64,000 bases of DNA, taken from NCBI GenBank assembly GCA_019671135.1, contig JAHRHY010000015.1, forward strand, positions 1-64,000. Reading direction: 5' to 3'. Made by a program: the position numbers and the translations under genes. Below the pieces are notes generated by a model. The model was not told the DNA's origin. It ran no database searches and saw only the letters and a list, made by a program, of their open reading frames with translations. This document shows positions 1-15,629 of the stretch, in pieces. Numbering within the stretch: the first letter of the stretch is position 1; every line of letters begins with the position of its first letter. The stretch is from Linnemannia hyalina. Lineage: Eukaryota > Mortierellomycota > Mortierellomycetes > Mortierellales > Mortierellaceae.

Positions 1-1
1 C

Positions 2-1649
2 TCGGAGATCCAAAAGGTCTGCAATGTCCTGGTTCCTTGCGACAACAACGCCTTCGTCAACTCCCAGGTCGCCGCTGAACAACTTCGGGATCCTGACGCG
101 AATGAGGACGACATGTTGTTCAACGTCTTCCATATCCCCCTCGCAAAGCCAAGGTTCGAAATTTTTTCATTGGCGGCTTAAGGGAATGGATGTTTGCCGT
201 GCCCGACGCGAACGGTGTGACAGTCTTGTTTTATTTGACCGAGTCCGAGTATACCCAACTGGTGAGCGCCTCCAAGAACATTCAAATACTCAGGATTCGT
301 CTGGACGAGGACAAGAGCAGGTCACACAATGCTCAGAGTATCCAGGCATTTATCATCGAGTCCGAGATCAAGCTGATCCCCAATGGAGCTGCATTGGTAG
401 ATCTGATTACCGCCAAGTTACCCGAGATTGTGCAGGTCGAGTCCCAGGGTCATGAGATTGTTGCGCTCATCGAGAAGTTGAAGGCGGACGCGGTTCAGGC
501 TGGAGGGCAGATGTATCTCTCAACCCCACAGTTTCTCCAGGCGATTCAACCGCACCAGGCTAGGCGCGCGGAGCTCGAGGCGAAGTATAGCGCTCTCAAG
601 GCTTTGTTCCTGGGCTGGACTCCACACCAATTTGGCATGGGAAAACGAGTGGTAGAGCAGCTGAGGCCTGGCCTCGAGAAGGGTATCCAGGAGAATTATG
701 CGCGTGCTGAGCGTCAGGCGGCGGCGATCGAGTCAGAGAGAGGGCGCATTCTTAATCAGGCCAGGATGATGGTCAAGCCTCTCACGGAGCAACAGGCACA
801 GGAGCGGCTGGTGAAGTCGAAGGTGGAACGCGCGTTTGCGGATAGGCTCGGCCGCAAGGAGGAATTTGTCATGAAGTCCGTCGAGGTCGAAACAAGTCGG
901 ACGAGAACTTGGCCCCTTATCGTTGCAGAGCTCCTGATGCCCGTGATCATGATCAACCAGCTCAAACTGGAGACCACAAAGCATCTGAACGATACCAACT
1001 GGGTGAATCAGGACCATCGGATCCGCAGCGTCCTGGCCCTGCCGCATGCCAAGGAGTGGTGGGATGTCGCTCCGGAAGTCGTCTTTGGAGGCCCGACGCC
1101 ACATCACTCTTTTTGGCCGATCAACCCGCGCAAGAGACTCCCCAACCAGTCATTTTTCCAGTTCAAGGATTATCTGGATTGGATGTTCCAGGAGAAGGAG
1201 AGCCGATTCCGTCGTTTCAACCAGCGCCCTAACACTTCAGGAACAATAGGATCAGGATCAGCGGGAGCTTCGATCCAAGAACAATGGGACGGTGTAGATC
1301 CTGGGGTGGTTCAGGCGACCTGCCAGTTGTCAAGTCGCTTTGGATTAGTGGATTTTAACCGCGAGATCCGACAGGCGGAACTGGTAGGATGGGCACGGAT
1401 CTGATTGGGGACCTTATGATGCCAGCTGAACCACATATGCTCCTGCAGGACGGTGTGAGCTCCTCCGCCGGCGCAAACGCGGAGTGTCCCATCTGCCAGG
1501 ACGAACTTGTCATCTCAGGATCTGGCTCCGACAGCGTGATCAAGCTCAAGTGTTGCCGTCATTGCTTCCACGAAGCATGCATTGCCGAGTGGTTCAAGTC
1601 AAGGACGCCCCAGCTTAAATGTCCCATGTGCAACGTCATTGTGCACTAG
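2..1649 (+). CDS. RING-finger protein, 5' partial
   Basis: The first exon is open from base 2 to about 153 and is cut by the window edge. The main exon runs about 183-1383, and a last exon 1449-1649 carries the RING. The 1384-1448 intron (65 nt, donor gtagga, acceptor ctgcag) is phase 0 and joins the two frames cleanly. The C-terminus shows C-x2-C (ECPICQDEL), then CCRHCFHEAC and CPMC, the C/H spacing of a RING domain that normally recruits E2 enzymes for ubiquitin transfer. The roughly 400 residues before it are rich in charged helices plus a Trp/Pro-rich patch (HHSFWPINPRKRLP) that I do not recognise. The join between the first two exons is odd: only a 29-nt gt...ag segment (154-182) would restore the frame, so either a very short intron or a frameshift is present. 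The RING call is good; substrate and pathway cannot be inferred. Confidence 0.65.
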
Positions 1650-2445
1650 TGAGGCCAAATCGGGGCAGCCAAGAGGGGCATTGCTCGGTCCTCAGAAGCT
1701 TGGCCCTATGCCGGATGGAACTTTGGGCTACTTCTTTGGATGTTCGACTTTGTTGTTACTTTATTTACATTGTGATGCCCTCCCACACGATTTCTGAACC
1801 GACGCCCACCAACCCCCGCGCAACAGTGACCATCCCGGCCGATGTTCGCTACGCCATCGTCCCCTTTACCTCCCGCCTCGGCCCTTTGTGATGATGAGAA
1901 TTTTGACGCTCTTCTATTACGGACACCTTTTCAAGGTCGGTCAGTCGTTGACAAGAGGAATGAACAATGTAGTGGTCTGGAATGGTGTCCACTTGCGGAC
2001 GTCGATGTCAGGACACTTTGGGTTCCCAGCACCCAACTGGGAGATGAACTGCTGGACAGAAATCAACCAAAGGGCATTGGAATGGGGCTTGATGAGATTG
2101 TACTTGGTATTCCCGCTGCAGACGGACGGATCACACAGACAGGATCGGCGATTGCAGCACAGCAGGCCCCGGCCAGCAGAATCGCCATCCCGAGACTCTT
2201 GCTGCAGAGATGGAGGCTGAAGGAACTTACCCAGAAAATCTTTGATCAGGACCAGCCCTTTCTCTTTCGGCTCTGACTTTGGCTCCGTCCGACAGCGCCA
2301 ACACCATACGCCACTCGCTCTTGACGCAGTTGACAGGCAGGACATTCCCACACACATTGAATCATATCCAAAAAAAACAACAGAAAGTACAACAATAAAA
2401 CACAAGCACATTCAGAAACGTTGAATTCCTATTTGACAAGAGATT
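1650..2445. other. Intergenic, no supported gene
   Basis: This stretch separates the RING gene from a convergent minus-strand gene. Overlapping frames of 110-156 codons are open on both strands between about 1840 and 2410. None shows a recognisable domain, and none has splice partners I could find. It may hold a decayed repeat or the two 3' UTRs. A short A-rich run near 2370-2405 could serve 3'-end formation. Confidence 0.4.
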
Positions 2446-2695
2446 TTAATTTCCGCCTGCATGGCACGGTTCCAAGGTAGCAGACATGGTGTAAGTACGA
2501 TCGAGGTGTGCCTCTACCCCTGGATCGCCCGACCCGCGAACCAAATCCTTCTGGACACTGGTGATGGCTCTGTTAGTCTGGGAAGAAGGATCGGTCAAGA
2601 GGGCCATGTTGTTCTGGACTGTGCGGATATTCGCCATCATGTTGAGGAGTGCCTCTTGTGTTGAGCGGAGTGTCTTTGCAGCCTCTCCCAATCCT

Positions 2696-2727
<32 letters not shown>

Positions 2728-3538
2728 CATATTGAAGTGACGAAGAAAGTAAATAATTTGTCACGTAGTTTCCAAGACGAAAGTGTCATTTTTTTCTTCG
2801 TTACCTGGGATGGTGTCTTGTTCTTTTGAAGGGTGTGACCCGCGTTGCCGTTGTTGTTGCTGTTGTTGGTATACGAGGACGTGTTGGGAGGCATTGTGTT
2901 GTTGGTAAGAGTCGTGGAAGATGTTCATGGCGCGGATGAGCTGATGCGACGCGGTGTCGAAGTCTGATAGTGTCGAAGTATTCATCTCTAAAGACGATGA
3001 AGCCGCTTTCCATGCCGGGGTCTATTTTCATTTATGCGCATAATGACAGGGACAGATAGCATGGTGTTAAGATGCGGTAGATTCTGATCTACGAAAAGGC
3101 GTGTGATGATAAATTGAAAGAGTTGGGTTGAGTGTATTGTAGTTGGTGTTGCGAGTACAGTACCTTTGAAAGGGCTTTATTGATCTCGACACGCGTCGTC
3201 TCAAGGAGGGCCTGGAAGTCCGACATGATGGCGTTTAAGTCTTGGAGTTGCTGGTTGTTGTTGGACTGATTGCTGAGAAGATGGGCATCTTGAAGGATAT
3301 GGTCAGGGAAGAGTTGGACAGAGCCCGTGAAGAGACTGGAATGGAATGAGGGTGTGGAGAGGACGGTGTCCATGAGTCTGCATGCGTTGGTGGCATCTGT
3401 CTTTGTCTTGGAGTCGGTTCCTGATCCGGGTCCGGGTATTGTTCCGGGTGGTGTTGTCTTTGTCTTTGTGTTGTCGTTCATGCTGTTCACTTGTTTGTAG
3501 AGGTGGTAATGAGAAAGGGTTGTTGCATGGAAGTTCAT
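2446..3538 (-). CDS. Small spliced coiled-coil protein, function unknown
   Basis: Three exons fit with consistent phases: 3538-3164, 3021-2805 and 2693-2446. Donors are gtactg and gtaacg; acceptors are aatag and ctag. The product is about 280 residues. The N-terminal part is Thr/Pro/Gly-rich and low complexity. It is followed by two predicted helical stretches, one around QDLNAIMSDFQALLETTRVE and one around STQEALLNMMANIRTVQNN, of the amphipathic kind found in small subunits of coiled-coil complexes. A Gln-rich linker lies in exon 2. The start is uncertain: an ATG at 3538 follows a CT-rich leader, and a second in-frame ATG lies at 3481. Intron 2 contains a 30-nt homopolymer (T on the plus strand, 2698-2727). 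I do not recognise the family. Confidence 0.5.
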
Positions 3539-4226
3539 GAAGGTATTTTGGCTTGTGAAAGGGGTCACAGAGAGAGATAGAGTGCGCCACTAATTTCCGG
3601 AGATGATATAGTGGATTTCACGCAAAATTATCAATTTATGATCAATGTTATTCTTGGTATAAAAAGTGCGAGCCAAAAAGGCCTATTCAATTAAGCGAAG
3701 TTGATACTGGCGAAAAGCATACCCTATTCTCCAGCCTCACCCGCACCTAACCAACACACACACAACACACTCTCTTCAGAAAGACAACACTCGATCTCTT
3801 TTTTTCTTCCCTTCACATTCTATACATCTGTTCCCTTTTCTACACGACACTGAACGACAACCCCACTACATTATACGCAGATTAGCGGCTTATAATGGTT
3901 TATAGATTTTTTTATTCCGAGCACGATAGACAGTTATAAACCAGTCACATATGTGTGAATAGATTGTTTCATGTGCCCTCTCCTCTCGTGCCTGTGCCTG
4001 AACACATTGAGAACTGCGTTGCCCTCCTGCTTACATCACACTCTCTGCTCTCTATTCCTCTCTGCTCTTCCCTCCCTCTATCCCTAGGTCCTTCTATCAT
4101 CACTCTCTCTACTCCCCTCTCTACTATCCTCTTCTCTCCTCCTTCCCTCAGCTTTGCCCTCACCCTGCTCCTAACCATATGTAGAGCGAGCTGACATGTA
4201 ACACTGTGATAGACCAAGGATGGTGT
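3539..4226 (+). promoter_or_regulatory. Orphan plus-strand promoter and leader-like sequence
   Basis: A TATA-like TATAAAAA lies at 3658-3665. It is followed by about 200 nt of CA/CT-rich sequence like the leaders of genuine genes in this window, yet no open reading frame starts there. From about 3890 the sequence changes character (TA-rich, a perfect palindrome cacatatgtg at 3946-3955) and then becomes CT-rich up to the 3' end of the Crypton gene. The promoter may have lost its gene through the neighbouring insertion, or it may belong to the element. Confidence 0.35.
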
Positions 4227-7200
4227 TTATTCTCTTCTCTTTGGGTACTTTCTCGAGGGTGCTTTGGGAAGAGCCTTGTAGTATTTATCAATTGAACCAA
4301 CAGTATCGATTTGCCCTCTTACGAAGGCAAGTGCATTGTTTACGGCGGACTTGTCAACCTGCAAGCCAGCTGGGATAGAGCGCAGAACCGAATGTACAAT
4401 GTCCTTCTTCCACTTGTAGAGCTGTGCATCTTTGCCTCGCCACGCTGATCCGAACCACCTATTAAGCTCTGCGATGGAGGGGGACCCATCGACGCCGTGG
4501 TAAAACCACTCTTGCCACAGTTGGTCGAGCGTATTCGGTCGTGGGATCAGCTTGCACTCGGGCATTAGGGGCATATGGTGTTGGGTCTCTCCTCTCGCCC
4601 TCTTCTCGTCGGCGACTAAGACGGCTACTTGTCGCATTCTGTCCTCGACATTGTCGCTGGGGTTGAAAGCGGCCAGAGCTGCGCGGCGGTGCGCATCCCT
4701 TGAAAGAACTGCAGTGGAAGAAGTCGGAGGTCTTGATTCTTGCTGGCCAGCGTCCGGCTCTGGAAGCTGAAGAAGAGCGATGGCGGTAGCCATAGTGGTA
4801 CTCTGGCTTGCTGCACTGCCGTTGACGTCGTCACTGACATTCACCTCATCGTCCTCGCTAATCGCCACCACGGCTTCCACCGTTGACTTGAGAGCTTGCA
4901 TCAACTGAGATCGAACGGCATCCTTGTTCAAACATTGTCGCTTGTTGCCTGCCAGTTTGTCATTGTTGCCAATGCACCGCTTCAAGTCCTTCAGCTCGGA
5001 TGCTGTCCTATCATTCTGAGCTTGTAAAGTAGCTGCTAGAACATTCATACCGGCGTGCAAACTCTGAAGTCCGGCTTGCTGGCTTTGCTGCAGGCTCCGG
5101 ATTGCAGCATCTTGGACACCGAGCCTCGCGCCGACCCTGTCAAACTCCAGTTGGATGATGGGTGTGGCAGATGCGAGGGAATCCGTGAGAGGAGAGGGAT
5201 TTCTCATGCTCTCGAGTAGGGTTTGCTGGAAATCTTGAAACGCAGGTGTTTTGAAGACAGGGTGATCGAAAACAGGGTGCGCGGCGGCAGCACCACCCCC
5301 GAACAGGATGACAGCTGCATCCTGAAGGATAACCTTTCGCAGGTGGGCGAGAAGGCTAAGATGGCGCTTTCTTGAAATGACCTCATTCGACAGAACGGTC
5401 TGCATATCCTTGTCCGTGTACACCTGCTTGACTTCCTTGCACTCGCCCCGTCGCAGCTTCTCACGCAACTCCTCGCGTCCGTGGAAAACGTCGCAGTCAC
5501 GCATAATGTTGTCAATCGTGAGCCTCCAGAACGTGTCGGAGCAAGCATCCTCGATGAAAGGGAACAACTGCCTTTGGAGCTCAATGCTGGGGATCACAGT
5601 GTTCCGAGCCAGCCAAAAGCGCTCTAGACGGTCGCGGTCAAATCCAGCCAATCGAAGGGCCACTGAAGGCTCTACACCCTCGAGATAGTGAGTTGAGAGA
5701 CGGTTCGATGCCCAGTTCCCGTGCTTAGCGATCGCCTCTACCGTAGATCCACACATATGCGCGAATCTGGAGCCGTGCTTGCGCCCAAGGTGAGTCACTG
5801 TGCCCTTGTCCAATATCCCGCTCTCATGAAGAGCCTCCACCTGCGCCTGGAACTGGGAGTTGTAAGTCATCGGTACATCCATTGGTTTGTTTCCAGCTAA
5901 CAGATGGTAGTCGGTCCATTTAGGGTTGGTGAGATCAGGCGCCCTTTTGTTTTTGCTCTTAGTACAGCAAAAAAAAGGAAGAGGGGGGGGGGGGGGGAAG
6001 AACGCATTATTAAATGAGTGTTGAAATATGAGTGACACCACGCGTCGGCCGCCGACATTTACCACATGCACGCCACTTACCGACCAAAGCTCAAGCAAAT
6101 AAAAGGCTAGCGCGCCAACTGGACACACATCTACTTCTTTGTTCCGAACTGCAACTCCATACTGAATCTTGCCGTCCTTGTTCGTCTTGCCTTGCCTCAT
6201 CATCAGCACAACTCCAAGCACGAATTGGCCTTCTCTGTAGCTGGCATCGTTCGTATTTTTGTTGCGGTTGGGCTCGACGTCGTGGGCGAAAAGATCCGGG
6301 AGTCGGATCTGGCGTGTGACCTCGCTGCGGAACATCATAAAAAAGCAAAGACTTACATCCGCACGGTCGCGTAACCCTTTCAAGCGGCGCTTTCTCAAGC
6401 TGGCTGCGCCCTCCACATTGCGCATCCAAAATCGCTTCATTAGCTGCCGAACAATCGAAGTTGGGTTCTGGGTGAAGTCGATAGAGCCAAAGTCGGTATC
6501 TGTCGACCTCTTCCTGGCGGACATCCTCACGCGGTAAACGTCGATCAGAGGTTGAATGTACGTCTTCGGGGCCGGAACTGTGCCATAATCCATCGCTAAA
6601 TTGTTCCTGTCTTCACACTGATGCTTATAGAGGTCGCCAATGGCAGCGAGGTGCAAGAGAATGGTTGCCGTCGAGTACCACCGCTCTTCACTGTTCTCAT
6701 TGTTGCTGTTGTGGATGTCAACGTCTCGACTGGCGTCCCCCTCGCAGTTGTCATCGCTTTTGTCCTCCACATCGCCTCCATCGACATCATCATCAGAACA
6801 CGGGTCATCCATATTTGCCCGCCGTTCGCCGGACTTGTCCTTGCTGTTGTTGCCCTTCCTGTCTCTTGGCGACGGTTTGATCCGTATGATACCTATTGCA
6901 TTTATATTTTCGTTAGTTCTTATAATTTCAAACACCACCATAGCGTTTCGTCGTCGTCGTCGTATCGTATGACCGCTCACATTAGTTCCATTTTTCATAT
7001 TCATACCGTTTTGAGGATCTTCCGTCTCGCAGGTCAGGCAAGCAAAGTAACGGGTTACTTTGCCTTTCGTGACGTTGTAATCATCCTTATATCCAGAAAC
7101 GTCGCACCATTCCTATACCAAGGGATGGAGTGATTGAGTTAGTTAGTGCGTCGAGTCGGGGGCCATAGTTTATCTATGCTTGTGCAAAAATGGGGGTACA

Positions 7201-7412
7201 TTTTACAATTTGCCATACCATGAACTTCTCCTGGTACCGATCATACTGGTCCCGCGTCGACTGGGCTTGCAAGACTTGCGAGCTTCGGCCACAAGATGGG
7301 AGCTTGCTAGCTCCTTCTGCTTATTACAGAGGTGATTTTGTTGTTCAACCCTATTGCGTTCGCGGTAGGTTTCCAGCTTAGATTTTGCTCTTGCCGGCTG
7401 GCTGCCTTGCAT
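4227..7412 (-). CDS. Crypton tyrosine recombinase with GCR1_C-type DNA-binding domain
   Basis: A core-binding-like segment (YDRYQEKFMEWCD, then VTKGKVTRYF) is followed by an acidic linker. The catalytic domain then shows the first Arg in FRSEVTRQIRLPDLF (about 6327), the QGKTN...CPVGALAFYLLELW block, HLGRKHGSRFA (His about 5792) and the presumed nucleophilic Tyr in STHYLEG (about 5687). Next come a coiled-coil region and a C-terminal domain resembling GCR1_C (LDQLWQEWFYHG...SPSIAELNRWFG). Introns at 7218-7113, 7006-6893 and 6080-5958 agree in phase; the last is 123 nt, so the frame stays open through it. Upstream, the frame starting at ATG 7412 (MQGSQPARAKSK) does not join the core frame: a one-base shift is needed between about 7260 and 7325. 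Cryptons excise and integrate with this enzyme in the nucleus. The domain call is firm; activity is doubtful because of the frame break. Confidence 0.85.
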
Positions 7413-8041
7413 GCTCGTCTGCTGCCGTTTGTTTCGTGCTATGGCTTTACCTTTAACAGAAAAGCTGCACGACTTGTTTAACGCGAAACAATAAAACAAT
7501 AGAACGAAATAGTAAGTATGGTGGTATGGTGGATGCCAATCAGGTACAGGACATATCGCCCCAATTGTGCAAATACCTCTTTAGCTTACCCGTGTCATTA
7601 ATTAGTCGGGTATTGGGGGGGGGGGGGGGTGTAATGTGTATTGGGGTGTGGGCTTGTTTGAATCAGGCTAATGTGGCGATGTGAAGTGAGAAAGAGGGAA
7701 GATTGGGGTGTGGGCTTGTCTGAATGAGGCTAATGTGGCGATGTGGAGTGGAGAAAGAGGGAAGAATGGAGTGACATGCATGCGTCCCATGTGGATGATT
7801 CCGCCAGAAAAAAAATAATTATGCAAGGCTGCCTATCGGTTTAAAACCGTGCCTATGCCGACGGGGATAAACCCATATGTGTCACGTGACTTTTATAAAC
7901 CAACCTTATGTGGATAACCCCCACAATTCCACACATTCCTCTTCCCACTCAACCTTTTCTGTTCACTTTCCCAACGTGACACACGAACGATAACACCACC
8001 ACCACCAGCACACTCTCTTTGCAAAGACGACGACATCCGTC
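7413..8041. promoter_or_regulatory. Divergent promoter region of the Crypton and Fanzor genes
   Basis: About 0.6 kb separates the two divergent starts. It contains a G14-type homopolymer near 7617-7630, a 62-bp tandem duplication, the palindromes cggtttaaaaccg (7837-7849) and gtcacgtgac (7881-7890, an E-box core), and a TATA-like TATAAA at 7894-7899. A CA/CT-rich leader then runs to the ATG at 8042. The TATA position fits transcription of the plus-strand gene. I saw no equally clear TATA for the minus gene. Confidence 0.5.
7640..7764 (+). repeat. Two-copy tandem repeat, about 62 bp unit
   Basis: Copies begin at 7640 and 7702 with attggggtgtgggcttgt and end in agaaagagggaag. They differ at a few positions plus a 1-nt indel. 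They sit in the divergent promoter of the element. Confidence 0.85.
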
Positions 8042-8101
8042 ATGAGCGACAACAGCCCTGGAGTACGTAAAACAGTTCATGAACGTTCATCACCTTGCGT
8101 T

Positions 8102-8140
<39 letters not shown>

Positions 8141-11007
8141 GTACTCACAACATATTGTTCCGTTCTGTTTTAACTACTACGAAGCAGATGCACTCCTTTA
8201 TGCCGGACTGGAAGTTCGTTAACGAGGCTGCAGAACAAATCCTGCACGAGGGATTCAATGGGGATCTATATCAGCGACTAGGAGGAGCTTTTATTGCTTC
8301 AGAGGCCCAACCCATAGCACAGGGTCAAGCGTCCGTCGCCTTTCGCTTTATCAACAAGCACCACTTGGCATTAAATTTCAGCACAACACCCTCTCTTGCA
8401 CGGCTTATCATTGCGATCTTGGATGGCTCATGGACACCGGAGCGTGGTGAGAGGAACGAGACCGGATTTTTGGTGCTTTGGAGGAACCAGGAAAACACCA
8501 TCACACATCCCATTCCACCTTCAAGCTTTCTTCTTCGCTACATCTCAGCACTATTGCACATCAACATATTCCTGTTTGACACCGCCGCCCGCCCCATTGT
8601 CATCACCCATCCCTATCCAAAAGGAGTTGTCGGTATTCTTCATGATGCATCGTCAATTCTGGGATACTCGGACTACAATGTACTCGGACCAACTCGTACG
8701 GAACAGGACGATCTTTTCATTGATCTACGGCCACCAACACCCCCGTCTCTACCACTTCCACCAGGACCTGCCGCGACATTCCGAACCGCCAAACGACCGC
8801 GCCAGCAGAGAGAAGGATGCGAGATCGACAGGGTCGCACTAGAGACCATCTACAAGGAGGAATGGTGTGTTTTGATGTCTACTATGTGAATGATTTTTAG
8901 ACTTTTTTTGTTTGATTTTTACTTCTTTATTGATTGTCTTTGATATTTTTAAAAAAAAATCATTTAGTGAGACCCGAGTCAAGAAGGAGGCGGCCGATCA
9001 GTGCCGCACGGCGAAGAAGCGTGCAAAGAAGGAGGCAGATCCGAGGGAAGCATTGGAGAAGGCACATATTGATGCAAAGCAAGCGGAAGAGAAACGTGTA
9101 AGAACGCCTCGGGGAGTCATGAATGAAACTGCTCGACGCGTTCGCCAACACTGCGGCATCAACGACGAAGAGGACTTTACCAACCATCACGCATCGATGA
9201 TGATTACCCACACTATTGGAGAACCTCAGACCGTTACTGGACGAGCTCTAGCGACATATAAGGCGGCCTTATCAAGACACTTTGACATGGCATGGATCGA
9301 GGAACAGGACCACATATCTGATCCTACCGTTGCTTCAGCAAACTCAACAACTATCGCCCCAACCCCATCGGACATCGACGCCCAGGATGACAACAGCATT
9401 CGCACTATTACCCTACCTCTTGCGAAGCTGCTCAGGACGGATCTCCCCACGAAGGATCAAGATTACATCACCAAGAGGCTAAACGACGTACAGGGTGAGG
9501 TGTCTGACTTTATGGAATCCGTTGCCATGGGAGCGTACAAGACAACACTATGGGTATGTTTTCAACATTCTCTGTCTTGGTTGTGGTCGCGCAAGGACAT
9601 ATTTATTTCAAGTTAACTAATATTATATGTTATCACGACCGTGTTTACTTTCTAGATCTGTCGCGGTGGCATCCAAGGAAGCATACAGCTTAACCTAGCT
9701 GACATATTCCCGCCATCCTTTGATATCAGGGACGACTACTTCAAGGAGAACCCGATCGTGGAAGCGGGAGTCATTACTCCGGAGTGGCAACAGATTGTAT
9801 CCGATGCTACGGAGTTGAAGCCCCGAGTGAAGGATCCGGCAACCTTGCTATCCCAGGATTATTTGCAGTACCTTGGAGTTCGGATTCCAGAATTGAGACG
9901 TGCGAGGAAGACCCCCAAGACTACCACCCACCCCTTGTGGGATACAGTGCTTGAAAGCATCTATAGCGGGAAGCTGGTACCACAAGCCTGGGATGATTCA
10001 AGGCATCCTGACTCACCCTCATCCAACCCCTTCAAGATCATTCCAAGCTTGTCTCAAGCCTCTGGTTCCGGCGCTGTGGATGATGCCTATGCTGCTGCTG
10101 ATGCCAATGTCGAGGTCGGATACCAGTCAGAGGACTCATCGAAGGAAAGCCTGGGGGGCTTGACGGCCACACTCATGCGAGAGTACGCTACGAACATCAA
10201 GATGATATGGTCTGGAGACATTTACGAGAGGTTGAGACGGTACGTGGTGCACAATGTTCTCCGACTCAATCTACGACCCCAGAGCGAGGAGAAACACCGC
10301 ATCCAAAAGCGGAAGCGTGCTATCAAGAAGGCCGAGGAGATGAAGGAGGCGTCGGCATCGGCAAGCCAAAAGCGTCGAGAGTCCCTGAGGAACTGGAAAA
10401 GGCGAAACCAGGACCTATTCAATCAACTTGATCACGCATTTGATACTAGTCGAGACGAGGAGCGCATCAACAAGATTTTCGGGCTCATTGACATCCATCA
10501 AGAGCGGCGGCCAGGAGTCAAGGAGCAGAACAAGTCACGTGGACTCACCCAAAGCGACGACTACGAGACGGACTCGGAGTTTGACGGCTCAGACGACTCA
10601 GACGACGATATGGATACTGAGTTGGTTGTTTCGGGCTCGAGCAAGAGCAGCGATGATGTTTTAATGCCTTGCACTCACACAGCAGATCAAGATTGCGAGA
10701 TGGGGGTCATGGAGGAGCAGTCAGATGCCGGTCGCTCTATTAATGCAGAGGCTCAGAGCAGTGGTCCGTCTGAATCTGTGGCACGCTCCTCAACAGGTAC
10801 CAATAACTAATATCGGACGCTGCTCCTTGCTGAGTTTGTGGTATTAACTGTTGACTAATATCTCTCACTTCCTTTTTCTCCACCGTAGGACCAAAGGAGC
10901 CGACATCAAAGAAGCTCCGAGGTCTAGAAGCAGTAGCTATCAGGTTGCTGGAATTGCCAGACTCGAACATACCCATCACCGAAGAGACAGTCAAGGCGAA
11001 GCTCTAG
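8042..11007 (+). CDS. Fanzor-linked N-terminal reading frame, unknown function
   Basis: Exons 8042-8062, 8185-8864, 8968-9553, 9656-10796 and 10889 onward all join in agreeing phases (0, 2, 0, 1). They give 848 codons up to an in-frame TAG at 11005-11007. Visible parts in order: a globular region with aromatic/hydrophobic strands, a basic coiled coil (KKEAADQCRTAKKRAKKEA), a second globular region (TTLWICRGGIQGSIQLNLAD...), a basic helix (KRKRAIKKAEEMKEASASAS) and an acidic Asp/Ser tract. No known domain was recognised. The frame continues through the TAG directly into the Fanzor frame (EPEM then YSTEEILAVLRL), which argues that this is the N-terminal half of one protein and that the TAG replaces a sense codon. 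A separate gene ending in TAG is the alternative. The first intron carries a GA microsatellite (about 8107-8136). Confidence 0.7.
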
Positions 11008-11016
11008 GAGCCTGAG

Positions 11017-13676
11017 ATGTACAGCACGGAGGAGATTTTGGCCGTCTTGCGGCTAGTGACATTACTGAGACCGTTTACCCCTAAGAAGGCCCACTCAGGA
11101 CCCCAGTCAACTTCCTATCCAAAGAGCGTCTTGACTTTGGGGCCGTTTGTGTATATTGCAAATGCAATCTTGAGATCGGCGGGATACAAGGATTTCACCC
11201 GTAGGATTTGCCCAGTTCCTGCTGTTGGGAATCGGCATGCTGTGCCGTTGGACGCGTCAGGGGTGTATGACATATTTGGCGGGCGAGCACCAGGACGCTT
11301 CGATATCAAGGGCCCAAGTGGTCGAGTAATCACCACGTCGACCGTCGCGAGACTGTCTACCGATCATCGCAAATATGTTTTCGGTGGACTTTTCAATATG
11401 GCCATCATCGACGATGCCTGCACGAAACATGGACTTGAGTTCGCACAAAGGTATGCATACATAAGGTCTTGAATATGACCTCTCCTCATTCATATCTATG
11501 ACCATCATGAGTCAATTGAATAACAGTTTACCGTGCATTGTTTGTAAAATGATAGAATGACGTACGTCGACTTTTACACAGTACGCATCACGGGACGACG
11601 GGCGATAACGGGACCAAACCGCCACTTCACCAACAGTGCGTACGAAGACAAGAAGAAGAAGCATGTTAAGCCATCAGGTGTAATCAACTGGACGTCGGAA
11701 CTACTGGAAACCGGGCACACCCCTCAATCTGCAGCCAAAGCGTCGGAGGAGATCAAGATTGTTCAGGATCGTTTGGTCACAGAGCTACAACCCCTCAAGA
11801 AGGGCCTCAAGGCAGCCACGACGGTCAGGAGAGAAAAGGACCGCACCCTTCGTCACTATGAAGGACACGACCAGAGACACAAAAAGGGAATCTACCAGAA
11901 CCTACAGGAGGCACGAAAAGTCGTCAACAACCTGACGAAGAAGATCGTTCCTCTCGAGGCTGAGATCCGGGAAAAGAAGCAGCAACGCTACTATTACAAC
12001 AGGTTGTCCAAGGCGACCGCCCCCCCAACAGCACTATCAGAAGACCCTTCTCCCCTGCCCATCACGACTGTCACAGAGTCTGTCCCAACTGTTCAACATC
12101 CTGGGATGCAAGACTTTGTTCAGACAACCTCCATCAAGCAGCTACTGTTAGAAATTGAAGACAAGGACCGACAACTACCTGTACCAGGCACTGACAGAGG
12201 ATTGGTGACTATGTCTGAGACTGTCCCCTCCTTGTGGTCAACTCTGGAATCTTTATCAAACCGATACTATATTCTCCATGGTATGTTTTCTTTTCTGCTT
12301 TACTACTGTCGCTCTATCATATCAAGATCGTGTCTTCATGCAATAATTTCCTACGGCGTTTCATTTGACGTTATAGGTCATCCCGATACTCACCACACCG
12401 GCAACGACGACGGGGCTTCAGAGCCGCCCACCTCTCACGCTGATGCTGTGGACATGGACATTGATGGCACGGACACCCAGCCCTCTCTGCATTCAGAATC
12501 GAAAGCGTCATCTCTTCCAGAACGGACTCGGAACGCCATAACGATAACTGGCTCTTTATCCCGGAAGGCAACGATCGAGGACATGCGTTTTGCCAAGTCC
12601 AACCGCATCACCGCAAAACAGGTCAAAGAAGTCGGTGGAGTAGGTAGGGCGACTCGAACAAGGGAGCGTTTGCTTCGACAGCCGGAAAATCAGAGGATTT
12701 CGGAGCTTCACAAGGAGATAGGAGAAAACTCCGTTTTGAAGGCGCAGACTATCAGTGAAGTTGACTCTGCACAGGTGACCCGACGATCAGCTACACAACC
12801 CCTTCGCAACTTCGAGGGCAGCAAAAGCTTAGTGAAACAAACCCACCACAAGGATCTTCAACTGCAGCGAGCATGGCAGACGATCGCAGCCGACGAACGA
12901 CGGAAAATGCAGGATTTTTCCAGAGGTAAGTTTATGGATTTAAGAATCGGAGTGCATTGATTCCTTGTTGTTAACTCCAATGGGCATTCAAATAACTAAA
13001 ACGTACTTTTATTTTTGTTTTCTTGATAGGAACAGGACAGACCCAACCAGCATCAGTCAACACAGTCGACTCTATCGATGGGTGTTGCAAGTGTGGTAGA
13101 CACCACCTCCCAATCCGCGTTGGAAGGGCACTCACCTATCCACAGGAATGCCCCAGAGATGCGTTGCCCATCATCCCTATCATGTTCGTCGGGACGGCAG
13201 GAATCGGAACCGGGAGTCGCATTGGCGGTCATCTAAAGTACGGCGGAAAAAAGGTCGTTGAGCAACATGCCCTCTCCGTCCCTGTACTGATGACCGATGA
13301 AAACATGACAAGCAAAGTCTGTCCGTTTTGTTTTGCGATTCTACGCCTCGTCAAGGAACTGAGACTTGTCAACGGAGTCGAGAAGCTGGTCACAATCAAT
13401 GGTGCGGTTCAGTGCGAAAACCCCAACTGTGAGAGTGTCCGCGCCGGTTATGCACGTCGAGGCAGGGACAGCAATGCATGTGTCAACATTGCACTTGCGG
13501 GATTCACGACAATCATGAGCGACAACAGACAGCCACTTCCTCCCTACAGGAGATCAACGCGTCCAGAGGGCGCCACCCCTTCAGAACCCCAGTCTCTCGC
13601 TACTGGAACACAACAAAACATCGAGCACTTCGACAACGGACCCATTGACAACAATGGCTTCCCGCGACGCTGCTGA
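11017..13676 (+). CDS. Fanzor1 (TnpB-like RuvC nuclease, OMEGA-type RNA-guided family)
   Basis: Exons 11017-11450 (continuous with the preceding frame), 11556-12280, 12377-12925 and 13030-13676 agree in phase (2, 1, 1). Counted from the first ATG after the amber codon, the protein is about 784 residues. RuvC-I is GTDRGLVTMS (Asp at 12193-12195). The RuvC-II Glu is the relocated one typical of Fanzor, in MTDENMTSK (13299-13301), just before the zinc ribbon. The ribbon is CPFC (13320-13331) ... CENPNC (13413-13430). RuvC-III is RRGRDSNACVNIAL (Asp at 13467-13469). A basic helical region (KKGLKAATTVRREKDRTLRH) precedes RuvC-I, and a second CCKCGRHH cluster lies in the last exon. Family members cut DNA guided by an RNA encoded at the element's 3' end and act in the nucleus. 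All three catalytic acids are present. The frame lies behind an in-frame TAG, so expression needs readthrough, reinitiation or a separate start. Confidence 0.88.
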
Positions 13677-13830
13677 TGAGCTAGCCTAGCTAGATTTATG
13701 TAAGTTCCCATCTGCTTGTTTCCCATTTATGATTTGCTACGGAGTCTGCTATCAGTAAACCTCAGATTAACCAAAACATCCTAAATTTTGGATGAAATAG
13801 ACAATAAATTAGGGATGGTGCTCTCTTGCA
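13677..13830 (+). ncRNA. Candidate Fanzor guide RNA (fRNA) region
   Basis: In characterised Fanzor loci the guide RNA spans the end of the nuclease gene and the element's right end. Here the 150 nt after the stop codon contain overlapping self-complementary words around 13773-13796 (ccaaaa/ttttgg and catcc/ggatg) and no other gene. This is a positional argument only; no structure was computed. Confidence 0.2.
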
Positions 13831-13985
13831 TCCATGGATAAGATGGGCGGTACCAACCATGTTTTCTTCGCTGTCGTTAACGACTTTCCTTCCCTCTTCA
13901 CGTCCTTCTGCCCTTCCCCATACAGTTCCTTCTTCACACTTTCAGGGTCGACACAAAACACACACACACACACACATACAACAGA
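13831..13985 (+). promoter_or_regulatory. Leader of the aspartic protease gene
   Basis: CT-rich sequence with a CA microsatellite (about 13957-13978) leads to the ATG at 13986. No clear TATA was seen. Confidence 0.45.
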
Positions 13986-15629
13986 ATGATGGTCTCATGC
14001 ACCACCCATCTCGTGGCTGCTATAGCCCTCCTCCATACTGCCACCACGTTCTGTCTCGCCACAAACCTCGAAGATGCAGTTCTGTCAACCTACCAGAGCC
14101 TCAACGACCTATCCCATTCAGATCACACCTTCCGACCACCCGTCCTTCATTTCAAGCTCGATCGTCGAGAACTGGCCCCGTCGCATTTGGATGCCAGATC
14201 GATTCACAAACCGTACACCGTCGGAGAGTCTGTGTCACCACTAACAGCACCATTCGAGTCCGGTTCCTCGGCCTCTCTCTCTTGTCCTTCCGACCAGTTG
14301 CTGTCTCCACCGTCGTATACGACCTCATCCTCTTCTTCCTCTGTATCACCATCTTCGGGCGCTGTTTCGGCAATGCCGTGTGTTGAGCTGACGGTCCCGA
14401 TGACTGCTATCCCCAAGGAGTTCGGCTACACAGCGACAGTTTCGATCGGCACCTACAAAGTCAAGGGTACCGAAGACACAGATCCTTCCCTTCAACAACT
14501 GTTCAACCTGTTGGTTGACACAGGCTCTGATCTGGTTGCCGTGACCTCTACTTCTTGCACTGATCCTGAATGTGTCCAAATCCGACACCGTTACAACCCT
14601 GACTTGTCGTCGACCGCTGCACCGACCAAGAACCATCTGACCAATAGCCCTCGGTGGGCGCAGATCTATGGCGACGGTACTGTTGCGAATGGAACCCTTG
14701 TCCAGGACACACTCCGGTTCATGTCGTCGTCCTCGTCTACGTCGTTTGGAGAGCCTCTTGAAGTTGTAGATCAGCCCATCTTGGTGATAGACCAGCCCGG
14801 TCTACACCTCGTCAAGAGTTACGGGTACGGCGTTGATGGGATCTTGGGGATGAACCTGCAGAGTCTGGTCGTCAGTCAGACGGTGATCCAAAACCTCCAA
14901 AGGCTCGAGGCTGAAGAGATCCAGCGAGGTGGGAGTGAGAGTCAGATTGGATATATGGGCCTGTGGTTGGGCAAGTCGATGGAGGCTGGTCAAGGTGGAG
15001 AGTTGATCTTCAATGGGATTGATGGTTCCAGATTCCAGGGACCCATCCATTGGTCGAATCGTGGTTTGAGTCCGTTTGACTGGTCAATTCTTCTTGACCG
15101 CGGTATCCTCTTGGTCGATCCCTCTTCTCCTGGTAGTGTTGTGACTTCTGCGGCCACACCAGCAAAAAAAGCAACAGTAATAACGCCGACAAAATTGCCT
15201 TACACACTCCCGATGACAGAATACACATTCGCAGTTCTGGACTCGGGCTCGGACGGGATTTACTTCCAACGCTCCATCTACGATGCCCTCTTTTCTCAAA
15301 TCCCGCAGGCCAAGAAACTCAAGACGGGCTACTGGCGAGTCCCCTGCAAGGGCCACCTAGAGCTTTGGGTCTGTATCCAGGGGGAAGTCTACCGAATCTC
15401 GTATCAGGATTGGGTCAAGAAGCCGACTGCTGCTGGGAATACACCCGAGGTGGTAGCAGAGATTGGGCCGGGGATGTGTCAGACAAAGGTGTTTGGGAGC
15501 TCGCCGGGGCCGACGCTTTTGGGGGCCACGTTCTTGAGGACGGTTTATACTGTGTTTGACTTTCGACGACCTGGGTATGAACGAGTTGGTCTTGCGCACC
15601 TTGGCTCTTTTTCCTCCTCTTCCACATAG
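13986..15629 (+). CDS. Secreted pepsin-like aspartic protease (family A1)
   Basis: A single exon encodes 547 residues. The N-terminus is a signal peptide (MMVSCTTHLVAAIALLHTAT). A roughly 130-residue propeptide-like, Ser-rich segment follows. The first catalytic motif is LVDTGSDLVAVTS near residue 176 and the second is AVLDSGSDGIYF near residue 418, so both Asp residues are present. A substrate-facing flap region lies between them (WAQIYGDGTVANG). The C-terminal LLGATFLRTVYTVFDF block is standard for this family. Such enzymes digest proteins outside the cell or at the cell surface. I saw no clear C-terminal GPI signal, though the last residues are Ser-rich. The lack of introns contrasts with its neighbours. 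An AATAAA-type signal lies near 15672. Substrate specificity cannot be told. Confidence 0.92.
   Translation: MMVSCTTHLVAAIALLHTATTFCLATNLEDAVLSTYQSLNDLSHSDHTFRPPVLHFKLDRRELAPSHLDARSIHKPYTVGESVSPLTAPFESGSSASLSCPSDQLLSPPSYTTSSSSSSVSPSSGAVSAMPCVELTVPMTAIPKEFGYTATVSIGTYKVKGTEDTDPSLQQLFNLLVDTGSDLVAVTSTSCTDPECVQIRHRYNPDLSSTAAPTKNHLTNSPRWAQIYGDGTVANGTLVQDTLRFMSSSSSTSFGEPLEVVDQPILVIDQPGLHLVKSYGYGVDGILGMNLQSLVVSQTVIQNLQRLEAEEIQRGGSESQIGYMGLWLGKSMEAGQGGELIFNGIDGSRFQGPIHWSNRGLSPFDWSILLDRGILLVDPSSPGSVVTSAATPAKKATVITPTKLPYTLPMTEYTFAVLDSGSDGIYFQRSIYDALFSQIPQAKKLKTGYWRVPCKGHLELWVCIQGEVYRISYQDWVKKPTAAGNTPEVVAEIGPGMCQTKVFGSSPGPTLLGATFLRTVYTVFDFRRPGYERVGLAHLGSFSSSST

Follow-up and report, generated by a model that had tools for sequence, protein, structure and literature searches.

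Near the start of contig C7 (JAHRHY010000015.1; assembly GCA_019671135.1) of Linnemannia hyalina, two mobile elements of different types appear to lie one inside the other: a transposon of the CryptonF class, which encodes a tyrosine recombinase, sits within a Tc1/mariner-like element that carries a gene for a Fanzor1-like nuclease. The window, that is, the whole stretch analysed, comprises the first 64 kb of this contig, starting at contig base 1, and was compared with the remainder of a 51.5-Mb assembly of 50 contigs representing one genome. Our analysis makes it very probable that this is a nested pair of transposons that has spread as a unit by means of its outer terminal inverted repeats (TIRs). 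The outer 6.2-kb element, which ends in TA, would encode the Fanzor1-like nuclease and no recognisable transposase; a 4.06-kb CryptonF would have inserted once into the 5' leader of its gene, and the resulting 10.2-kb unit would recently have multiplied to 8 copies through the outer TIRs, as their shared ends suggest. A first-pass annotation had already placed a Crypton recombinase on the minus strand and a Fanzor1-like gene on the plus strand, back to back, and this arrangement is borne out in a repeated 10.2-kb element.

Ends and copies of the nested elements

The composite extends from 3607 to 13806, with no strand assigned, and has terminal TA dinucleotides at 3607-3608 and 13805-13806. 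These ends, TATAGTGGATTTCACGC and GACAATAA, are exactly common to the window and 6 other composites in a base-level comparison, and they correct the earlier estimate of 3881-13830, which had been close; an eighth composite (C23:1297469-1307679) was recognised from its two ends. The left TIR, TATAGTGGATTTCACGCAAAAT (3607-3628, plus strand), and the right TIR, TATTGTCTATTTCATCCAAAAT when read inward (13785-13806, minus strand), each agree at 16 of the 18 specified positions with the pattern TATTGYGCNTTTCANNNAAAAT, and these two ends are the two best matches among the 127,956 window positions scored on both strands. This pattern, of which the terminal TA forms part, was first noticed in the flanks of Crypton copies. 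It occurs 34 times in the genome, as against 0 occurrences of a reversed control, and stands at both ends of all 12 short elements examined (155 to 891 bp), several of which share flanks and are not independent.

Searches of the same genome, whose counts are lower bounds, returned at least 19 matches to a 1.5-kb Crypton probe and at least 10 copies of the Fanzor part, the two occurring together in 8. Composites lie inside long contigs in C1, C2, C12, C49 and twice in C23, and their flanks are unrelated but for two pairs, the window with C12 (left flank) and C16 with C23 (right flank). Pairwise comparison of 7 composites, with gaps ignored, gives a mean difference of 0.125% for the Crypton part and 0.152% for the Fanzor part.

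Two of the 10 Fanzor copies, C20:89329-95521 and the more diverged C49:2108154-2114967 (C49b), are free of an internal Crypton. Both have the same outer ends as the composites and an identical empty Crypton site, reading GACAACACTACATTCCACAC where the composites hold the Crypton. The terminal TA is present in the Fanzor-element copies compared, except at the right end of C49b, and the right TA of C20 is displaced by a Crypton. Exact ends and an empty site, both proposed as checks in the first-pass annotation, were thus obtained by comparing copies within this genome. In the window the Crypton spans 3870-7925 (minus strand, about 4.06 kb), with a left end (A)TTATACRCAG and a right end GTGGATAACCCC..CA, the last 1-2 bases at each end being ambiguous, and solo copies end identically to the nested one. 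Its insertion splits the leader of the Fanzor gene, leaving about 116 bp between the Crypton and the first candidate ATG (8042), so that what had been taken for a shared divergent promoter of 0.6 kb is really the junction of two elements, with the right end of the Crypton at about 7925. The window Crypton differs by 1.2-1.3% from three solo copies in C47 and by 0.6% from a 2.1-kb part of the copy in C44; this larger divergence of the solo Cryptons, together with the equally low divergence of the Crypton and Fanzor parts among composites, fits one capture followed by joint spread. Judged from these sequences, the Crypton appears to be a separately mobile element, as does the Fanzor element, and the nested pair would have been amplified later. 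The idea of one composite element therefore holds insofar as the two genes travel jointly with exact ends in 8 copies, but not insofar as two nested elements, each separately mobile, are present. By the same token, the alternative foreseen at the outset, that the genes would be found apart or only one of them mobile, has a mixed answer: both are separately mobile, and the pair was then amplified.

A candidate for the source of transposition is an element of about 2.87 kb, here called X, which has the TIR pattern at its left end and encodes a DDE_3 transposase of Tc1/mariner type (E 6.1e-30). Because its outer TIRs fit a family that includes this DDE element, the composite most likely spread in a Tc1/mariner-like manner, and a mariner-type DDE transposase acting in trans, possibly that of X, probably mobilised it. 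The recombinase is most likely a passenger of the composite and not its mover, contrary to the initial proposal; the Crypton has inner ends of its own, an empty site and 11 solo copies. The outer element has TIRs flanked by TA, as a Tc1/mariner element should, but no DDE transposase of its own was found inside it, and we therefore call it a non-autonomous, mariner-like element and not a mariner. The copy of X at C10:338161-341028 has a second open reading frame (ORF) on the minus strand, of 424 codons and with no Pfam match above cut-off, and a Crypton attached at its right end.

Several observations weigh against this reconstruction. No DDE transposase domain was found in the 8 ORFs of the composite that were scanned or in two spliced pieces, and, as no unoccupied host site for the outer element was found, a TA target duplication is unproven; in the old copy C49b, as noted above, the right end has no TA. 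The composites have three extra bases, CCC, at the left Crypton junction, for which the reconstruction does not account. The left flank AAATRM is more constrained than plain TA insertion predicts and is unlike the flanks of X and of the short elements, and, given these flank differences, X may not be the mover of the Fanzor element. Finally, the copies in C7 (the window) and C16 lie at or near contig ends and each have one flank in common with another copy. Either chimeric contig ends or genuine duplications may account for the flanks that C7 shares with C12 and C16 with C23, and the composites may consequently occupy fewer than 8 independent places.

Two other accounts of the locus were considered. 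According to one, the Crypton recombinase excises and inserts the whole 10.2-kb unit as a single composite, the outer ends being its recombination sites. Joined outer ends would indeed give imperfect inverted arms, AATTTTGGATGAAAT / ATTTCACGCAAAATT, complementary at 13 of 15 positions by eye, the likeness of the left flank (AATRM) to the right end (AATAA) is what a short core repeat would produce, and the Crypton inserted at the right terminus of the Fanzor element in C20 shows that the recombinase can act there. However, Fanzor elements without an internal Crypton (C20 and C49b) have the same outer ends, solo copies display the Crypton's own inner ends, and the TIRs at the outer ends fit a family that includes a DDE transposon; we regard this account as improbable, and on the strength of the first two observations it was rejected as the main explanation. 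The other account, that the genes are adjacent by chance clustering or only through misassembly at a contig end, draws on the facts that the window begins at contig base 1, that its left 3.6 kb are a noisy near-copy of the C12 flank and that the right flank of C16 also occurs in C23. Yet the two genes are arranged alike at sites deep within long contigs (one each in C1, C2, C12 and C49, two in C23), which makes such an explanation very improbable indeed; these internal copies led us to reject a pure artefact for the composite as a whole, while for the left flank of the window it may apply.

The CryptonF and its insertion at transposon termini

The recombinase ORF (4227-7112, minus strand) measures 961 codons from stop to stop. 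Residues 386-626 (5235-5957, minus strand), in the catalytic half of the tyrosine recombinase, match NDC10_II (PF16787; E 4.6e-20, 72.4 bits, cut-off 26.3), and residues 854-915 (4368-4553, minus strand) match GCR1_C (PF12550; E 3.1e-9, 37.4 bits, cut-off 23). By eye, the HxxR box (HLGRKHG, from residue 441), an HGNW...Y box (464-477) and an upstream arginine box (FRSEVTR) can be discerned, and the ORF accordingly has both the R-H-R-Y tyrosine recombinase and the GCR1_C domain that define CryptonF. The frame given, like the exon model of the Fanzor1-like gene, is predicted from the sequence: the ORF probably holds an in-frame intron near 5980, and a first exon may lie further upstream. A run of C near 5983 varies in length between Crypton copies. 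As regards the terminal direct repeat, the junctions permit a shared core of only 2-3 bp (CA/GCA), as against the 4-6 bp expected of CryptonF, and the inner ends show, by eye only, a short inverted similarity (GTGGATAA / TTATACAC), whereas CryptonF elements are expected to lack TIRs. A sequence comparison of the recombinase with the PDB gave a single match at E 0.85 and none that was relevant. The inner element looks like a complete CryptonF that would move by its own tyrosine recombinase. Within it, a 62-bp tandem repeat occupies window positions 7640-7773, and the C2 and C23b copies are broken and shorter here.

Beyond the window there are 18 Crypton copies, of which 10 were examined on both sides and the other 8 as short end pieces; the right end of the C18 copy was not found in its end piece. 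In 10 of the 11 solo Cryptons the left end falls exactly at a terminus of the TIR family (15 to 18 of 18 positions), representing 7 distinct termini when X is counted once for three solo Cryptons and one short element once for two. The right flank starts with ATA in all 10 copies in which the right end was found. A separate Crypton occupies the right terminus of the Crypton-free Fanzor element in C20, and each of the X copies in C9, C10 and C13 has a Crypton at its right end. The left-truncated X in C24 carries none and presents an open terminus, GGCGCAATA. X and Crypton may or may not move as a single unit: three full copies of X carry a Crypton and the left-truncated fourth does not.

Taken together, these junctions suggest that the Crypton strongly prefers TIR-family termini, to which it would travel alone by means of its tyrosine recombinase; the pattern at the junctions is observed directly, and a resemblance between the recombinase site and the TIR terminus around (G)CA could be the basis of the preference. 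Three points tell against so simple a rule. The solo Crypton C9a is not at a TIR terminus (7 of 18 positions), the composite's own Crypton site agrees with the TIR pattern at only 6 of 18, and the count of 10 in 11 arises partly by construction, the pattern having first been seen in Crypton flanks. As a control for this last point, the 12 short elements elsewhere were subsequently seen to carry the pattern at both ends. About 10.7 kb of other sequence divides the solo Crypton in C44, whose pieces overlap by 5 bp where they are split, as would be expected if a further transposon had inserted there; at the right end of this Crypton lies a second short TIR element.

The Fanzor1-like gene and a candidate target-adjacent motif

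The Fanzor1-like gene (8188-13677, plus strand) is predicted to have 7 exons (8188-8864, 8968-9553, 9656-10796, 10889-11450, 11556-12280, 12377-12925 and 13030-13677), separated by 6 GT-AG introns, and to encode 1,628 residues, with an alternative earlier ATG at 8042. The window copy has one in-frame stop, and the frame is open over all 1,628 codons in 3 of the 7 composites checked. Within its last third the protein shows a Fanzor/TnpB pattern, reading, in order, GTDRG, TDENM-TS-KV-CPFC, CENPNC and RGRD. The first of these holds a putative RuvC-I aspartate, D1202 (codon 12193-12195, plus strand), and the others form, by motif reading, a stretch from a TS-xx-C4 zinc ribbon to an RD motif (TSKVCPFC...CENPNC...RGRD; 13308-13469, plus strand), which has the form [TS][TS]xx-C4-X(5,50)-RD of the Fanzor1 motif. 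A paralogue in the same genome, 39% identical, keeps the key residues of the TS, zinc-ribbon and RD segments. The conserved FVG glycine stands 36 positions before the glutamate of ENMTSK, and the spacing is likewise 36 in SPu-1-1p (G500 to E536), according to the part of the published description used here (PMC3627910).

Against this identification stand a gap of 304 residues between D1202 and T1507 in the predicted gene model, with a low-complexity insert between them, as against a published range of 125-275, and a match to Cas12f1-like_TNB (PF07282) that lies at the expected place but, at E 0.078, below cut-off. Profile searches therefore supported the recombinase half of the first-pass annotation, with NDC10_II and GCR1_C above cut-off, and fell short for the Fanzor half. 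Comparison of the protein and its paralogue with the PDB by sequence also counts against it, giving matches at chance level and none relevant. No relevant match was found in NCBIfam, and a search of viral contigs gave 2 stretches that fit a pattern, neither of them a relative. The last exon folded together with one paralogue gave a mean predicted local distance difference test (pLDDT) score of 35 and was not used. We consider 'Fanzor1-like' a fair name, resting on motifs, with library matches below threshold. The first ~350 residues of the gene (window 8188-9553) have no Pfam match and are maybe a separate domain or gene. At least 10 more distant Fanzor-like loci, among them C1:1639150, C49:135710, C8:832106, C2:900276 and C12:317059, are piecewise 28-59% identical to the window protein, several with stops.

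Upstream of the terminal TA, the Fanzor elements share a left-flank motif, ATRM (ATGA in the window, 3603-3606, plus strand), which is a candidate target-adjacent motif (TAM). Flanks common to two copies being counted once, positions -4 to -1 before TA read A, T, R and M in every one of the 9 distinct left flanks, and A also stands at -5 in 8 of 9 and at -6 in 8 of 9. The background frequency of ATRM is 2.0% of TA sites in window 14001-64000. ATRM was derived from the same 9 flanks on which it is scored; independent of it is a test in which 200,000 draws of 9 random TA sites were inspected at 12 positions, where at least one position was invariant in 45 draws and at least two in 0. In SpuFz1, a Fanzor whose requirement for CATA 5' of the target is described in the passages of Saito et al. 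2023 (PMC10432273) relevant here, the TAM ends in TA like the ATRM-TA proposed for our element, and the element that encodes it has putative TA duplications in the corresponding part of PMC3627910; together, these make a TAM ending in TA a natural reading of ATRM-TA. By analogy with SpuFz1 and TnpB, the nuclease would probably take its guide from the right flank of the element and use ATRM-TA on the left to cut empty sites, favouring retention of the element. A one-sided flank motif fits the retention or homing role that had been suggested for the nuclease but does not show such a role.

The chances seem to us evenly balanced that the motif reflects only an insertion preference of the transposase, with the nuclease uninvolved. 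Tc1/mariner transposases favour AT-rich sites around TA, and on the right side A follows TA in 8 of 9 distinct flanks, as such a preference might produce. On the other hand, of 14 flank strings (distinct, not all independent) from elements with the same TIRs in which no Fanzor gene was seen, only 2 have the motif, and these are related; the constraint sits upstream of the left end, the place expected for a TAM. A more far-reaching and rather doubtful possibility is a dependence in three layers, in which CryptonF has evolved to use mariner-type TIR termini as vehicles, and the RNA-guided nuclease of one such vehicle, with the TAM ATRM-TA present in every left flank seen, drives retention of the whole nest, the recombinase included.

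An omega RNA would, by analogy, be expected at the 3' end of the gene (13678-13806, plus strand). The end region folds little better than chance: for window 13560-13809 the z-score is -1.36 and 21 of 200 shuffles are at least as stable, an unremarkable fold that counts against our reading, and an Rfam scan found nothing in the window. Nor were any 'ghost' loci with a right end only found in the genome, all 10 right-end matches being the 10 element copies. The idea of retention can be tested directly in this genome, as it combines elements that carry only a Fanzor gene and have resolved ends, a possible transposase source with the same TIR pattern, empty and filled Crypton sites, intact recent copies and a predicted TAM.

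Relation to known elements, and neighbouring loci

Parts of this arrangement are already known. In the portions of the published accounts considered here, these comprise a CryptonF-mariner fusion, Fanzor1-only elements of mariner type and a Fanzor1 family with a truncated Crypton part. The first is MarCry-1_FO of Fusarium oxysporum (Kojima & Jurka 2011, PMC3212892), described in the section available to us as a CryptonF fused with a mariner-type element that has TIRs and a TA target site, with four copies more than 97% identical and mobility ascribed to the mariner transposase. The composite described here resembles it in joining a CryptonF to a mariner-type TIR/TA element. It differs in that MarCry-1_FO encodes its own mariner transposase and, in that section, has no Fanzor mentioned, whereas ours has a Fanzor1-like gene in its outer element, where no transposase could be found; the Crypton-free relatives and the empty site are further differences from MarCry-1_FO as described there. 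A MarCry combines a Crypton and a DDE transposase in one TIR/TA element, and here the Crypton and TIR/TA are present and the transposase was not found, so the composite is not a MarCry, though it may work like one. A preference of Cryptons for transposon termini could also explain the origin of Crypton composites such as MarCry.

The nearest likenesses to the outer element are Fanzor1-only. SPu-1 of Spizellomyces punctatus, the source of SpuFz1, is a Fanzor1-only TIR element with a putative TA (Bao & Jurka 2013, PMC3627910); it differs from ours in being 2.1 kb long with a single ORF and 33-bp TIRs, with no Crypton mentioned in the passages concerned. In the corresponding passage, Saito et al. 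(PMC10432273) found no transposase between its inverted repeats, whereas here the candidate X has the same TIR pattern as the Fanzor element. PUl-4 is likewise Fanzor1-only, with mariner TIRs and TA, but the TIRs of PUl-4 and other Fanzor1 mariner elements are identical to those of confirmed mariners, with no nested Crypton mentioned in the relevant part of PMC3627910, whereas those found here are similar only. MCi-2A of Mucor circinelloides has a near-identical Fanzor-encoding 3' part and differing 5' parts, one with Crypton transposase sequence; unlike our composite, its Crypton part is about 200 residues short, TIRs are absent, target duplications are 11-12 bp and its class is left open, as far as that part of the account goes (PMC3627910). 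Crypton recombinases are also named among Fanzor1-associated transposases in the portion of PMC10711439 concerned. Our literature search covered papers outside subscription, and among those listed we met no account of a complete Crypton sitting inside a Fanzor element, nor of Cryptons inserting at the ends of mariners.

Window positions 1-3606, with which contig C7 begins, nearly repeat the C12 left flank but contain many small indels. The two agree at 99% over 3.6 kb, and their nearest part, aligned over 2,738 columns, shows 20 substitutions and 24 columns with gaps; this left flank of the window may be a low-quality or chimeric contig end, that is, a contig-end artefact. An isolated fragment of the left end of the Fanzor element, with the rest missing, lies at C33:567493-567632. 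Directly to the right of the composite, window 13881-15629 holds an aspartyl protease ORF (PF00026), and the composite is inserted just upstream of that ORF.

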